Shown: piece after piece, positions 6,412 to 60,869 of the stretch
Layout of the letters: each line of letters starts with the position of its first letter
Position numbering within the stretch: position 1 is the stretch's first letter
Source: Desulfonatronovibrio magnus
GTDB lineage: Bacteria > Desulfobacterota > Desulfovibrionia > Desulfovibrionales > Desulfonatronovibrionaceae
Direction of reading: 5' to 3'
Assembly (NCBI RefSeq): GCF_000934755.1
Contig: NZ_KN882175.1
Span: 619,261 to 683,260 of the forward strand
DNA length: 64,000 bases
Notes under the pieces: generated by a model
Database searches by the model: none
The model's input: only the letters and a program-made list of their open reading frames with translations
Told to the model about the DNA's origin: nothing
Made by a program: the position numbers and the translations under genes

Positions 6412-6722
6412 TTCTTCTAAGTAACTAAAATCAAATTATTAACAAAATCAGACGGTTATAGTTTTCACAATTTTAAGATTTTTACATATGATTGATTCTC
6501 AATTACCAGAAAAGTTCCGTCAAAGATGAGAGCTTTGCGCCTGGCACAGGGACTGTCCCTCGCTGTGTAAATTTTTTCATTTAAGCAAATTTTTCCAGGA
6601 ACCAATGCAGCATCAATCTTTTTTATAGTACCTCGCGGGGACTGTCCCAATTTCCAGAAAAGTGACAGACTCGTTAAGTTACTCACAGGTTCGACTACCG
6701 GACCGCCCGGGTGAAAAGATTT
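6412..6722 (+). repeat. 311-bp mosaic repeat, copy A
   Basis: This element fills most of the 490-bp gap between the DUF554 gene and era. It starts with CTTCTAAGTAACT and contains two GGGACTGTCCC palindromes (6549-6559 and 6638-6648). It ends with the ~50-bp module AGTTACTCACAGGTTCG...CCGCCCGGGTG (6677-6722). Copies lie at 33275-33585 (same length, same strand) and, inverted, at 35313-35634 and 39175-39530. It has no coding content. Confidence 0.9.
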
Positions 6723-9056: not shown

Positions 9057-9461
9057 TTTCATAAACCCTGATATACAACACACAATGAATCTAAGTATCA
9101 GTTTAGCCTGTTTTTTTAAAGTTAGCAGAGGAACATGGCATCCCAGTCTTTTTTTTTTGATTTAAAAATAGTTTGTAACTTTTCACCATACAGCTGCCAC
9201 TTTGTAAATCGAAATGCCCAATACTGGACCCCGAATCAAGTCCGGGGTGACGGTTAAAGCAAATTCTTACTCTTTACCGTCATTCCGGCGAAAGCACGGA
9301 ATCCAGAAAAAAAAAGGGAGCACAGAAGACTGCCTGTAGAGAAGCATAAAAGTATGCTGAATAGATACAATAGACTTAACAAAAAAGGTACTGGAAAATC
9401 CAGTCTCTCTGACACATGCAAATGGCTAAAGGTTAGAACTGTTACTTAACTGGAGAAAAAA
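9057..9461. other. 405-bp gap with paired hairpin repeat
   Basis: The gap holds a two-hairpin unit at 9225-9315 (ACCCCG..CGGGGT then ATTCCGGCGAAAGCACGGAAT, the second now imperfect). The same unit lies in reverse orientation at 39081-39165 with the same spacer. Such CCGTCATTCCGG hairpins are common dispersed repeats in proteobacteria. A decayed dispersed repeat (CACATGCAAATGGCTAAAGG...CTGTTAC) lies at 9411-9446. No gene is seen. Confidence 0.7.
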
Positions 9462-12578: not shown

Positions 12579-12960
12579 TTATTAAGTTTGATCCTCTTAT
12601 GATCAACAGAGTATAAATATGATGAACAGTAAGCAATGCAGCCAAACTTATATGTTGGTACCAGGAAACTGGCTTTTCTGCCTTTAATATTATTATGCTG
12701 CTTAAAACTTTCCAACGGCAAAAATGCCTGTCCCAATATTTTAAAATATTTCGTAACAGTTTAGCCATTTGCATGTGGCACGGCTTCCTGCCCGGAGGCA
12801 TACAGCCCGGAGGGGGACTGGCTCTCCCAGCCCTTGTTTTATTAGAAAAGAAGGGGACAGTCCCAAAACTCTAAGCTGTTACATACCTGCCTGCACTTAA
12901 AGTTAACGTGAGTTCTCACAAAAAATTATTACGCGGACGTACGGTAAACCAGACTTCTTA
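12579..12960. other. 382-bp cheR-cheW gap
   Basis: No gene is seen. The gap contains the MITE-like element at 12753-12882, which includes one GGGACAGTCCC palindrome (12854-12864) and a CCGGAGG-rich insert shared with 22420-22457 and 39351-39386. Confidence 0.8.
12753..12882. repeat. MITE-like element with terminal inverted repeats
   Basis: The left end GTAACAGTTTAG and the right end CTAAGCTGTTAC form imperfect terminal inverted repeats around about 130 bp of non-coding DNA. The ends match those of the element at 33023-33163. No clear target duplication is visible. Confidence 0.6.
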
Positions 12961-22175: not shown

Positions 22176-22511
22176 AAATAGTCTTTGCTTTGTTATTGGT
22201 TGATTAAGGTTAAAACCTTTCAGCCAGGTGTACCCTGAAAAGAATTCTCGGGTCTGCCGGGAAACATATAAGCTCTCTTTTAATGCTGGTCCCGGTAATT
22301 TTTATAAAATGAACGAATAGCTCCTGTTAAAAAAAGCAGGGGCCAGACACCCCAAGCACCACTTGATCAACAAACCATGTTTGAAGCATGCCATTTTTGA
22401 GGCAAGTGGTTTCCTGAAATGCCAGTCCCCCTCCGGGCTTTATGCCTCCGGACAGGGGAGCAGTGCACATCCAAAGGTCTAAACCATTACTCATAAGGTA
22501 CTGCAATTCCA
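22176..22511. other. 336-bp gap with dispersed repeat
   Basis: No gene is seen. 22400-22492 carries a variant of the dispersed repeat (GAGGCAAGTGG...CACATCCAAAGGTCTAAACC) with the CCTCCGGGC-type insert (22420-22457) shared with 12785-12818 (reverse) and 39351-39386. Confidence 0.7.
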
Positions 22512-33274: not shown

Positions 33275-33585
33275 GCTTACAAGTAACTATAGTCGAATAT
33301 GAAATAAATTCAGATATTTACAGTTTTCACATTTTGATGATTTTTGCTTATGAATGATGCACATTTGCCTGAAAAATTCCGTCAAAGATGAGAGCTTTAC
33401 GCCTGGCACAGGGACTGTCCCTCGCTGTGTAGATTTTTTCATCAAAGCAAATTTCTTCCAGGAACCAATGCAGCATCAATCTTTTTTATAGTACCTTGCG
33501 GGGACTGTCCCAATTTCCAGAAAAGTGACAGACTCGTAAAGTTACTCCCAGGTTCGGTCCCGGTCCGCCCGGGTGAGGGGCTTTT
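33275..33585 (+). repeat. 311-bp mosaic repeat, copy B
   Basis: It has the same length and orientation as copy A (6412-6722). It contains palindromes GGGACTGTCCC at 33411-33421 and 33501-33511 and ends in the CCCGGG-hairpin module (33540-33585). It is inverted relative to copy C across dctM. Confidence 0.9.
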
Positions 33586-34956: not shown

Positions 34957-35619
34957 TCCAGAGAAAATCCTTAAATATTATATTATGATGAAAAATTTTT
35001 ATGCTCTTTGCATGTGCACAAAAAGTGTTATGCATGCACCCCTCACAAGAGGATCAAGTTGTAACTTGGTAAGCACTTTACCCGTGCGGCCCCGGGATCT
35101 AACCTGTGAGTAACTTGAAATCAGCCTTAGCGCGAGATTGCTTCGCTTCGCTCGCAACAAGGATTGCCGCGCTCGAAGACTCGCTCGCAATGACACCTGA
35201 GCTGTCAGGAATGTAGTTGCTCAAAACCTGTCACCCACGAGGGAGCCTGAGCGACCGAAGCAATCTGTATGGTAAAACCATAATATTTTGAATTTATTAT
35301 TAAAACGATTGTAGTTACTTGTAAGCTCCTCCCCCGGGCGGCCCGGGACCAAACCTGCGAGTAACTTTAGGATACTGTCATTTTTCTGGAAATTGGGACA
35401 GTCCCCGCGAGGTACTATAAAAAAGATTGATGCTGCATTGGTTCCTGGAAGAAATTTGCTTTGATGAAAAAATCTACACAGCGAGGGACAGTCCCTGTGC
35501 CAAGTGCAAAGTTCCCATCTTTGACGGAATTTTTCAGGCAAATGTGCATCAATCATAAGCAAAAATCGTAAAAATATGAGAATTGTAACCGTCTGATTTT
35601 GTTAGCAAAACGATTCCAG
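34957..35619. other. 663-bp repeat insertion between dctM and dctQ
   Basis: No gene is seen. Its components are TTGCTTCGCTTCGCTCGCAA-type hairpin DNA (35137-35156), repeat E (35163-35320), a CCCGGG-hairpin module (35313-35366) and copy C of the mosaic repeat (35313-35634). It breaks what is normally a tight dctQ-dctM junction. Confidence 0.9.
35163..35320 (+). repeat. 158-bp direct repeat E
   Basis: It is nearly identical in its first ~120 bp to repeat F at 37358-37515, same length and orientation. It contains ATTGCCGCGCTCGAAG, CTCGCTCGCAATGAC and GAGGGAGCCTGAGCGACC. The last ~35 bp diverge. Together with F it brackets dctQ and dctP. Confidence 0.9.
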
Positions 35620-35634
35620 TTACTTAGAAGCTCT
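35313..35634 (-). repeat. Mosaic repeat, copy C
   Basis: Reverse-orientation copy of the 311-bp repeat, with GGGACAGTCCC palindromes at 35395-35405 and 35485-35495. Its outer end AGTTACTTAGAAGCTCT (35618-35634) overlaps the 3' end of dctQ. Confidence 0.9.
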
Positions 35635-37227: not shown

Positions 37228-37357
37228 TGAAAACTGTTATTGCTGATTATTTACGCAGTACCACAATGAAGTTATATTGTTAATTAGAAGCTCCTCACCC
37301 GGGCGCCCCGGGACCGAACCTGTGAGTAACTAAAAAATCAACCTTAACACGTTAGAG

Positions 37358-37515
37358 ATTGCCGCGCTCGAAGACTCGCTCGCAATGACACCTGAGCTGT
37401 CAAGAATGTAGTTACTGAAAACCTGTCACCCACGAGGGAGCCTGAGCGACCGAAGCAATCTGTATGGTAAAACCATAATACTCTGATTTTATGAGCAAAA
37501 CGATTGTAGTTACTT
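37358..37515 (+). repeat. 158-bp direct repeat F
   Basis: Partner of repeat E (35163-35320); see there. It ends in GATTGTAGTTACTT, the same joint sequence that begins the other modules. Confidence 0.9.
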
Positions 37516-37914
37516 TTAAGCGTCTCATCTAAGGGGGTATAGACCAAACATGCAAGCAACTGTCTTCATTAAGCCGAGCCTGCATCCTGAAGCTATTGAA
37601 CAATTGTCGGCTGGAAGCCGTCTCTACGTTAAAGGACAGCCCCTTTTCTAAAAATTTGGGGTAGTCACTGGACGGTTATGCAACTGCTGATTAAGATAAG
37701 ACTACTGAAGGTCAACAACACTTCCACAGAATTTAGTTTGACTGTAAAATGTTTGTCAAGGACTTTGTCACTGCACAGGGCCTGTAAAGTAAACAACGGT
37801 CTATTTTGGTCCAAGGTCTAAGGTCTAAGGCATTCTTTTTGAGACTTTGGACGTCAAAGTCATTCAGCAATAAGCTGCTTAAGCTCGTTAACATCAAAAA
37901 CCAGGGAGGACGCC

Positions 37915-38925: not shown

Positions 38926-39020
38926 TAAATATCTGAAATGCAAACAAACGTTCATTGTTTTGTAATCGCCTCACACGGAGGGACCGGGACCGAGCCTGTG
39001 AGTAGCTTATACCCCTCGTT

Positions 39021-39066
39021 CCCAGGCTCCAGCCTGGGGACGTCTTACTCTTGCGGCTCCAGCCGC
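39021..39066. repeat. Two hairpins with CC loops
   Basis: CCCAGGCT-CC-AGCCTGGG (39021-39038) and GCGGCT-CC-AGCCGC (39053-39066) are perfect stems. The layout recalls the two-hairpin module at 48374, 55093 and 60682, but both loops are CC here. Confidence 0.75.
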
Positions 39067-39080
39067 TTCTTCATACCAAA

Positions 39081-39165
39081 GCCTGGATTCCGGCTTTCGC
39101 CGGAATGACGGTAAAGAGTAAAAACTTGCTTTAACCGTCACCCCGGACTTGATCCGGGGTCCAGT
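39081..39165 (-). repeat. Paired hairpin unit
   Basis: ATTCCGGCTTTCGCCGGAAT (39087-39106) and ACCCCGGACTTGATCCGGGG(T) (39140-39160) are near-perfect hairpins joined by a conserved ~35-nt spacer. The reverse copy is at 9225-9315. This is a widespread type of dispersed hairpin in proteobacteria. Confidence 0.8.
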
Positions 39166-39174
39166 TTTTTTTGA

Positions 39175-39530
39175 AGTTACTTGGAAGCTCCTCACCCGGA
39201 GGGACCGGGACCGAACCTTCGAGTAACTGAAAATGAGTCTCCTCTATGGACATTGGGACAGTCCCCGCGAGGTACTATAAAAAAGATTGATGCTGCATTG
39301 GTTCCTGGAAGAAATTTGCTTTGATGAAAAAATCTACACAGCGAGGGACAGTCCCCCTCCGGGCTGTAAGCCTCCGGGCAGGAAGCTGTGCCAGGCGTAA
39401 AGCTCTCATCTTTGACGGAACTTTTCTGGCAAATGTTCATGTATCATAGGCAAAAATCGTGAAAATATGAAAACTGTAAACGTCTGATTTTGTTTATAAT
39501 TTGGCTTTAGTTACTTAGAAGCTCTTCACC
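39175..39530 (-). repeat. Mosaic repeat, copy D, with nested insert
   Basis: Reverse-orientation copy with GGGACAGTCCC at 39255-39265 and 39345-39355. Compared with copy C it has an extra ~31 bp (about 39355-39386) with two CCTCCGGGC words. The same insert occurs at 12785-12818 (reverse) and 22420-22457. Confidence 0.85.
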
Positions 39531-42927: not shown

Positions 42928-43065
42928 TTCAGGCTGAAGGCTGAAGGCTGAAGGCTGAAGGCTGAAGGCTGAAGGCTGAAGAATTAAAACTATAGACCTT
43001 ATTGGTCTTGTCAATGTATAAAGTTTTCTTGTTTTTTTACTACAGGATTGGAGCGGTAAGTGACT
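42928..43065 (+). repeat. Composite repeat with CTGAAGG array
   Basis: Six perfect CTGAAGG heptamers plus a partial one (42934-42981) are followed by a conserved flank (TTATTGGTCTTGTCAATG ... TTTTCTTGTTTTT ... ACAGGATTG). The same flank follows a two-unit array at 60870-60960, so array plus flank form one dispersed element with variable unit number. Confidence 0.8.
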
Positions 43066-48147: not shown

Positions 48148-48612
48148 AATGGGCCTGCGTATAAGCATAGGCTTTTGCTTTGGCAAGTAAAAAATTTATT
48201 TGTCGATTCTTTTACCTTGCCTTGAGCTCGAATTTTCATTATCTGCCAACAAATCATATCTATCGAAGCACGGGAACTGGCTCTTTCTGGACCCACTTGC
48301 CTTAAAAATGACAAGTTTTTAATGCACCTCGCTGGGACTGTTCCAATTTCCAGAAGAGTGACAGTTCTTCAATGTGGAGGCGGCTTCCAGCCGCCTGGAA
48401 CTAAATAGCCTGCAGGATGCAGGCTCCACTTTAAAGGCAGTTACTCGCAAGTTCGGTCCCGGCCCCTGGTGAAGATCCTAAAAATGACAAGTTTTAAATA
48501 TCGGTTATTGCTCAAATGGTTCCCTAAGCGCCTGCCCCTCTATTTTCCCTGAAAGCGCTAAACTATTACCAGATTTTCTATATTTCGCTGAAGTGATATT
48601 GGAGTTAAACTA
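48148..48612. other. 465-bp repeat-bearing gap
   Basis: There is no gene between topA and the YchF-like gene. It holds a dispersed fragment (GGACCCACTTGCC at 48290), a degenerate GGGACTGTTCC palindrome near 48331, the two-hairpin module (48374-48429) and a CCCGG-type module (48439-48478). Confidence 0.8.
48374..48429 (+). repeat. Two-hairpin junction module, copy 1
   Basis: Outer stem GTGGA/TCCAC; first hairpin GGCGGCT-TCC-AGCCGCC; second hairpin GCCTGCA-GGA-TGCAGGC. The two 3-nt loops are reverse complements. A CCCGG-type module follows at 48439. Copies are at 55093-55147 and 60682-60734. Confidence 0.85.
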
Positions 48613-55038: not shown

Positions 55039-55092
55039 TGAGACCATTTCAAGGGACAGTCTCATTTTCCAAATATGAGACTGTTCTTTAAT

Positions 55093-55147
55093 GTGGAGGC
55101 GGCTTCCAGCCGCCTGGCCTTAATAGCCTGCAGGATGCAGGCTCCAC
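55093..55147 (+). repeat. Two-hairpin junction module, copy 2
   Basis: Both hairpins and the GTGGA/TCCAC outer stem are identical to copy 1, while the linker between hairpins differs (TGGCCTTAATA). A CCCGG-type module follows at 55157-55200, then a heptamer-periodic run ending 12 nt before accC. Confidence 0.85.
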
Positions 55148-55200
55148 TATAAAGACAGTTACTCACAAGTTCGGTCCCGGGCCGACCGGGTGGGAAGCTC

Positions 55201-55242
55201 TCAACTATTAACAATTAACTGATAACTTTTAACTCTCAAGTT
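55201..55242 (+). repeat. TTAACNN heptamer run
   Basis: Six units in 7-bp register (TCAACTA, TTAACAA, TTAACTG, ATAACTT, TTAACTC, TCAAGTT) lie directly upstream of the accC-like start. Being A/T-rich they may overlap the promoter region. Confidence 0.6.
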
Positions 55243-60634: not shown

Positions 60635-60681
60635 GTGATACACCTGATAGCTCAACTGTTATCATATTCCCGACGTTCAAT

Positions 60682-60734
60682 GTGGAGGCGGCTTCCAGCC
60701 GCCTGCTTTTTATCCTGCAGGATGCAGGCTCCAC
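60682..60734 (+). repeat. Two-hairpin junction module, copy 3
   Basis: The first hairpin and outer stem match copy 1 exactly. The second hairpin is one pair shorter (CCTGCA-GGA-TGCAGG), and the linker differs (TGCTTTTTAT). Confidence 0.8.
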
Positions 60735-60869
60735 CTATCAAAACAGATAACTCTCATGTTCGGTCCCGTGTGTGTCCGGGTGAGACACTGAAAAAAGTTA
60801 AAGCAGGACTTTCCCGCAATCCAACTGAAACAAGTAATGTTAAGTTTGGAGCTTGGCTGTGATTTTCAG

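Follow-up and report, generated by a model that had tools for sequence, protein, structure and literature searches.

This locus raised the question of what a hairpin module of about 50 bp is, and how it came to recur some ten times within 64,000 nucleotides. The window, as we call the whole stretch of that length that was analysed, was C114:619261-683260 of Desulfonatronovibrio magnus (G000), which we take to be a salt-lake sulfate-reducer; C114 is the contig that contains the window. The initial annotation had listed about ten copies of a CCCGGG-hairpin module that all started or ended with AGTTACT/AGTAACT. All ten listed coordinates carried the hairpin, which we have designated M (45 nt, AAGTTACT...GGTCCCGGGCCGCCCGGGTGAGGAGCTT), and an eleventh copy was found at about 35071-35115 on the minus strand. 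The shared heptamer held for most but not all of them. An exact AGTTACT was present at the 5′ arm of seven copies (6677, 33540, 48439, 55157, 35313, 37282 and 39175), whereas the copies at 60745 (AGATAACT) and 38960 (AGCTACT) were degenerate and that at 39509 was a half copy, retaining the right half and AGTAACT only. A search of the 4.81-Mb genome (134 contigs) with the 24-base pattern AGTTACTCNCAGGTTCGGTCCCGG, allowing up to 3 mismatches, revealed 488 matches (242/246), and the reversed pattern gave none in the same genome. The genome-wide profile search that had been proposed was carried out with a profile built from C114, and found 119 copies of M on this 797-kb contig and a further 102 on five other contigs, of which 775 kb were covered. 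The density that had been considered high is thus well beyond chance, but the window is ordinary in this respect for its host genome. No Rfam family matched the window at gathering scores.

For parsing of the sequences that adjoin it up- and downstream, M was read as AAGTTACTCACAGGTTCGGTCCCGGGCCGCCCGGGTGAGGAGCTT. A few block families were found upstream of M, and either one of a few left ends or unique sequence downstream. M was the right end of non-coding units, mostly of 230-400 bp, each of which ran from a left end, NNAAGTAACT, through interior blocks to a right end, ...GTGAGGAGCTT. Three types of left end (LE1, LE2 and LE3) were distinguished, all of which start with NNAAGTAACT. The units and partial units of the window were as follows.

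6417-6720, plus strand: unit LE1-A-M (type 1a), after CTT; C114:625676+; M divergent, at about 6676-6720
33279-33583, plus strand: unit LE1-A-M (1a), after CTT; C114:652538+; intact M at 33539-33583
35323-35627, minus strand: unit LE1-A-M (1a), first of a two-unit chain; C114:654887-
35071-35322, minus strand: unit LE2-E/f-M (2f), second of the two-unit chain; left end at 35313-35322
35313-35366, minus strand: M (right-end hairpin of the 1a unit) plus 10 nt from the start of the next unit; they join at CTT^ACAAGTAACT (here and below, a caret marks a cut or join)
37288-37517, minus strand: unit LE2-E-M (2e); degenerate M upstream, at about 37500-37565
39185-39518, minus strand: unit LE1-A(b)-M (1b); half M precedes, from 39519 onward
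38963-39184, minus strand: unit LE3-G-C-M (3c), chained to the unit at 39185-39518; M degenerate
48334-48482, plus strand: D block (two hairpins) and truncated M; left end not found
55053-55201, plus strand: D block and M; left end not found
60676-60795, plus strand: D block and degenerate M

In the module first marked at 35313-35366, the AGTTACT... end was the left end (35313-35322) of the 2f unit. Lone fragments without M, which matched parts of the units at ~39.1-39.4 kb, were present at 9220-9295, 12744-12826 and 22421-22456 and are probably remnants of old units. The window also contained tandem heptamer-type repeats (CAGCCTT / GAAGGCT) at 12-321 and 42931-42984, on opposite strands.

On C114, 87 units were parsed, comprising 36 of type 1a, 14 of 2e, nine each of 2c and 1d, five each of 1b, 2f and 3c, two of 1c and one each of 2d and 3a. 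Analysis of six contigs showed blocks E, C, A, D and G to be optional, and the order E or G, C, A, D and M was kept in 66 of 67 ordered pairs; the sole exception, a D before an E, was a lone D adjoining a separate left end. M always terminated the unit and the joint was polar. The proposal that the AGTTACT/AGTAACT joint is where the larger repeats meet the two-hairpin module was borne out, in that both abut M, and the modules were not confined to fixed full-length combinations. The parts are combinatorial, but they are not freely interchangeable as had been suggested, being optional and yet ordered. The interior hairpins were nearly confined to units: 90/95 hairpins of A, 54/57 of E, 52/58 of C, 42/47 of D and 47/55 of the second D hairpin lay within 300 bp of an M, compared with 7% of random positions. 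Among 34 type-1a units the median identity was 88%, and pairs of units at distant sites reached 99.7%.

Examination of the sequence before the left ends revealed where the units insert. Among left ends without a preceding M, CTT stood directly before 41/51 on C114 and 29/51 on other contigs, the latter set being a fair test since C114 alone had supplied the models. When the two sets were pooled, CTT immediately preceded 70 of the 102 unchained left ends and was absent from this position in 32, and at other offsets from -12 to +3 it occurred in 0-9 of 102. On C114, after removal of duplicates, positions -3, -2 and -1 were C, T and T in 39, 41 and 43 of 45 cases respectively, and position -4 was free. 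The right end of the unit was GCTT; the flank beyond it varied, with a preference for NNAAnTAA, in which position 3 was A in 28/40 cases and position 4 in 30/40. The initial annotation had raised the possibility that the AGTTACT joint is a transposase or recombinase site. The joint is indeed a real insertion junction, but the cut lies at CTT, two bases before AAGTAACT, and not at AGTTACT itself; the junctions were compatible with C^TT, CT^T or CTT^.

Empty sites were found among repeats within the same genome. Five arrays (C114:76788+, 96984+, 278277-, 312378+ and 138876-) were located in one dispersed repeat, and their flanks, when joined, matched uninterrupted copies of this repeat across the join, for example over 77 bases with 98.7% identity at C114:181738 and 386237. 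Only these five arrays were counted, as the right-junction patterns of the pooled scan were loose and also matched empty repeats. The empty site read GCGCTT^TTAAGG, whereas in the filled site ACAAG followed the first CTT and TTAAGG the second, which shows that the two bases are not duplicated and that the element supplies its own terminal CTT. The units insert directly 3′ of CTT, in one orientation and without target duplication. The target repeat (TTTAGCGCTTTTAAGGAAAGCAGGGGACAG...) is a separate dispersed family, with 28 uninterrupted copies on six contigs, including those at C114:181738, 386237 and 361155.

As units insert after CTT and end in CTT, the next unit is predicted to enter an old end in one direction only, so that head-to-tail chains would form. 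The 50 arrays of C114 consisted of one unit in 30 cases, two in 15, three in four and four in one (arrays 6 and 7 overlap, with two left ends before one chain). Neighbouring modules less than 600 bp apart were on the same strand in 39 cases and on opposite strands in 3 on C114, two of these three being one palindromic site scored on both strands; on the other contigs the figures were 28 and 3, giving a total of 67 versus 6. By a rough estimate from the counts of neighbours, unchained left ends and arrays, the use of an M end as a target would exceed that of an average CTT about a hundredfold. The rule "insert after CTT, end in CTT" reduces a bewildering set of repeats to a single element that has exact ends and forms polar chains, which makes it testable.

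When folded with DNA parameters, the M strand formed a 45-nt hairpin with a 10-nt bulge in which the 3′ CTT was paired to a 5′ AAG (-8.7 kcal/mol), whereas its complement formed the apical stem only (-7.0 kcal/mol). M together with the following NNAAGTAACT formed a longer hairpin, closed by AGTTACT/AGTAACT. A fold comparison of the LE1, LE2 and LE3 consensus sequences revealed no hairpin in common. Covariation in M, determined from the 80 of 119 C114 copies with at least 34/45 ungapped matches, was weak, with clear compensation in 1/16 pairs (C-G 59, T-A 9, T-G 4). The outermost pair was formed in 44/80 copies and the AAG/CTT pairs scarcely varied.

Most arrays were intergenic: ORF cover, from our own rough ORF calls, was below 30% in 39/50 arrays, compared with a mean of 3.8 and a maximum of 10 for random placements. 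Orientation relative to the next gene was even (19 versus 20), and a replication-strand bias was not significant (88 versus 65 clusters, p=0.075, with one further cluster ambiguous). M matches were present in 9/41 genomes, namely this one and eight of 40 relatives, all eight from the same family, and the M pattern was not found in any of 23 genomes at order level. In a genome collection, the exact degenerate M pattern occurred on 26 contigs from Desulfonatronovibrio, Desulfonatronospira and the 'Desulfobacterales bacterium' isolates GSL_CB2_4 and M55B179. The 'Desulfobacterales bacterium' records (loci L049, L056-L058, L061, L064 and L066-L069) carried a variant of M with the same 5′ half and a different 3′ half that still ended in CTT; its end, ACTT, is the full complement of the AAGT foot, and it was mostly followed by NNAA. 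The relatives' M sequences had consensus variants of their own. In the sister species the same right end and CTT flanks were found, in 7/13 cases strictly and in 2 more with an offset of one or two bases. Viral contigs had no exact match to M and plasmids no match to the 305-nt type-1a consensus. Literature drawn mostly from outside subscription journals yielded no paper on this repeat in Desulfonatronovibrio or Desulfonatronospira.

Beside many tyrosine recombinases, the genome encoded one Y2 transposase and 10 Y1 transposase matches, four of which hit the REP-associated transposase (RAYT) model with scores below its cut-off. In flank scans, with about one third of the genome read base by base, a Y1 gene flanked by both unit ends was found at 0/10 of these loci; no match to M or to a left end was present at any of 30 Y1 loci taken from relatives that contain M, and scans of both sets revealed no RAYT flanked by M. 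One relative, G005, had 24 M matches and no Y1 match, at 89% completeness. As searches for Y1, Y2 and integron-integrase genes revealed no mobiliser in cis, and in view of G005, the class of the enzyme is one that we infer. The one Y1 locus with a unit beside it was L015 (C116:102144-105434), where a separate LE3-G-C-M unit had entered after CCCGGCTT; the gene there is a broken RAYT, accompanied by different hairpins of the GCCGAGC...GCTCGGC type. A Y1 subfamily (L013, L014 and L016) had relatives in G009, G041 and G042, genomes which also contain M or its variant; this is to be taken as a lead only. G009 (5 contigs) contained 31 Y1 matches, several of them near-identical copies, and only 5 weak M matches.

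None of 11 genomes had an integron-integrase over the cut-off. A broken integron-integrase relic was present on contig C8 (L145, 62705-63213) and did not adjoin M arrays. On the same contig (65572-67647), an IS91-like Y2 transposase gene lay next to a gene for a 325-aa tyrosine recombinase; this pair was rejected as the mobiliser as it had no M ends. Four long LE-to-M distances were likewise dismissed as autonomous copies, two containing assembly gaps and two being longer block combinations, as was a left end without M at C114:604590, which had no transposase among its ORFs.

We favour, with reserve, the reading that the units, with M as their right end, are short non-autonomous transposons of the single-strand hairpin type, mobilised by a Y1 transposase in trans. 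As in IS200/IS605 and REP elements, the units would move via single-stranded DNA. The M strand would form the bulged hairpin, whose AAG foot is paired to the terminal CTT and could likewise bind a target CTT. At each end of the unit, a trans-acting Y1 (HUH) transposase would make its cut behind CTT or within it (C^TT); the unit would then be joined to a new CTT, its own terminal CTT becoming a target for later units. The blocks in the interior would travel as passengers, with their hairpins as the points of gain or loss. This reading is supported by the CTT rule with its free -4 position, the five empty sites, the same-strand chains and the better folding of M than of its complement, together with the CTT flanks in the sister species, the ACTT/AAGT variant, the 99.7% identical units and the confinement of hairpins to units. 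Against it stand the lack of a Y1 gene with both ends, G005, the lack of a left-end hairpin, the weak covariation, the NNAAnTAA right flank (which a Y1 model does not predict), the non-significant strand bias and the 32/102 left ends without CTT. If the enzyme is a Y1 transposase, the logic of IS200/IS605 would extend to elements without a conserved left hairpin.

The main rival, which we consider rather unlikely, is an integron-like system. Here M and the next unit's NNAAGTAACT would together be a single folded recombination site that insertion has split, and the cassettes, circular and non-coding, would enter at C^TT through a tyrosine recombinase. The left-end types share only NNAAGTAACT, which is complementary to the AGTTACT arm of M, so the folded site is complete solely at a unit-unit joint; M and this left arm do fold as one hairpin, and the target preference NNAAnTAA resembles the left arm. 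Like integron cassettes with their attC sites, the units form polar head-to-tail arrays with a short core triplet, and the genome has the integrase relic on C8. The boxes of attC are RYYYAAC...GTTRRRY, whereas M has AGTTACT...AAGTAACT, of opposite polarity. The units are, moreover, non-coding, the hundreds of scattered sites would be unusual for such a system, and no functional IntI was found, the relic being broken and away from the M arrays. Were the enzyme a tyrosine recombinase, the units would be a dispersed cousin of integrons. Another reading, improbable in our view, is a single-strand recombination system not yet described, whose unrecognised recombinase would target CTTNNAA, move the split folded site M/NNAAGTAACT and re-create the target at the unit end; the genome would thereby grow polar chains of non-coding cassettes, with REP hairpins, CGTC-type included, as their passengers.

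It is equally doubtful that the pattern is a passive mosaic, left by an old spread and since reshaped by gene conversion, by homologous recombination and by deletions linked to the hairpins, and that no enzyme dedicated to the units is now at work. The 88% median identity, the consensus variants particular to each relative and the failure to find an enzyme are in keeping with such a history, which could still account for block loss, but it does not give rise to fresh, exact insertions behind CTT alongside uninterrupted copies of the target repeat, nor to units that are almost identical although far apart. That the units are conventional MITEs, with the terminal inverted repeats of a DDE transposon and a short duplicated target (either CTT itself or the next two bases), is already disfavoured and very improbable. 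CTT does stand on both sides of the unit and CTTNNAAG is a palindrome, but the right CTT stays the same where the left flank departs from it, and CTT is followed by AC on the left and by TT on the right, the target also having TT, so that neither has been duplicated; a single fixed chain orientation is also not expected of a MITE.

The behaviour of the units is like that of IS200/IS605 elements and fits the cleavage at C^T described for TnpA-REP (PMC8266576). IS200/IS605 elements are described as inserting 3′ of a fixed short sequence without duplication, with a right-end hairpin, a target-like terminus and fixed orientation (PMC7290912, PMC6006769). The units share with them and with palindrome-associated elements (PATEs) insertion without duplication, here at CTT, a subterminal right-end hairpin, a target-like right end and fixed orientation. 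They differ from IS200/IS605, which has a hairpin at both ends, in having no common left-end hairpin, in chaining and in being modular, and no tnpA or tnpB with unit ends was found. They are exact-ended, chain-forming mobile units that, given that neither a left-end hairpin nor a gene with the same ends was encountered, appear to work like the IS200/IS605 family rather than to be members of it.

With REP/BIME repeats and their TnpA-REP (RAYT), the units share high-copy intergenic hairpins, a bulged stem and mosaic assemblies. Unlike these, they are direct rather than alternating, larger and exact-ended, and the 5′ foot of the M hairpin has no GTAG/GTGG, the M consensus before the stem being AAGTTACTCACAGGTTCGG. 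BOX elements of Streptococcus pneumoniae are also composite intergenic repeats of ordered optional modules, described as varying mainly in boxB number (PMC3049150). Their sequence is unrelated, however, and the available text of that source contains neither the CTT insertion rule nor chain growth. Block G contained a CGTC-ATTCCGGC-GAAA-GCCGGAAT-CCA palindrome, which fits the stem, loop and tail given for CGTC-tagged REP families (PMC3733652); the available text of the same source reports no associated transposase for them. In this genome 21/38 CGTC-type repeats lay within 300 bp of an M, and those near M differ from the published families in being carried along inside a larger unit. Such hitchhiking is thus a possible route of spread here, and would offer hairpin repeats without a transposase of their own a way to spread as ordered passengers.
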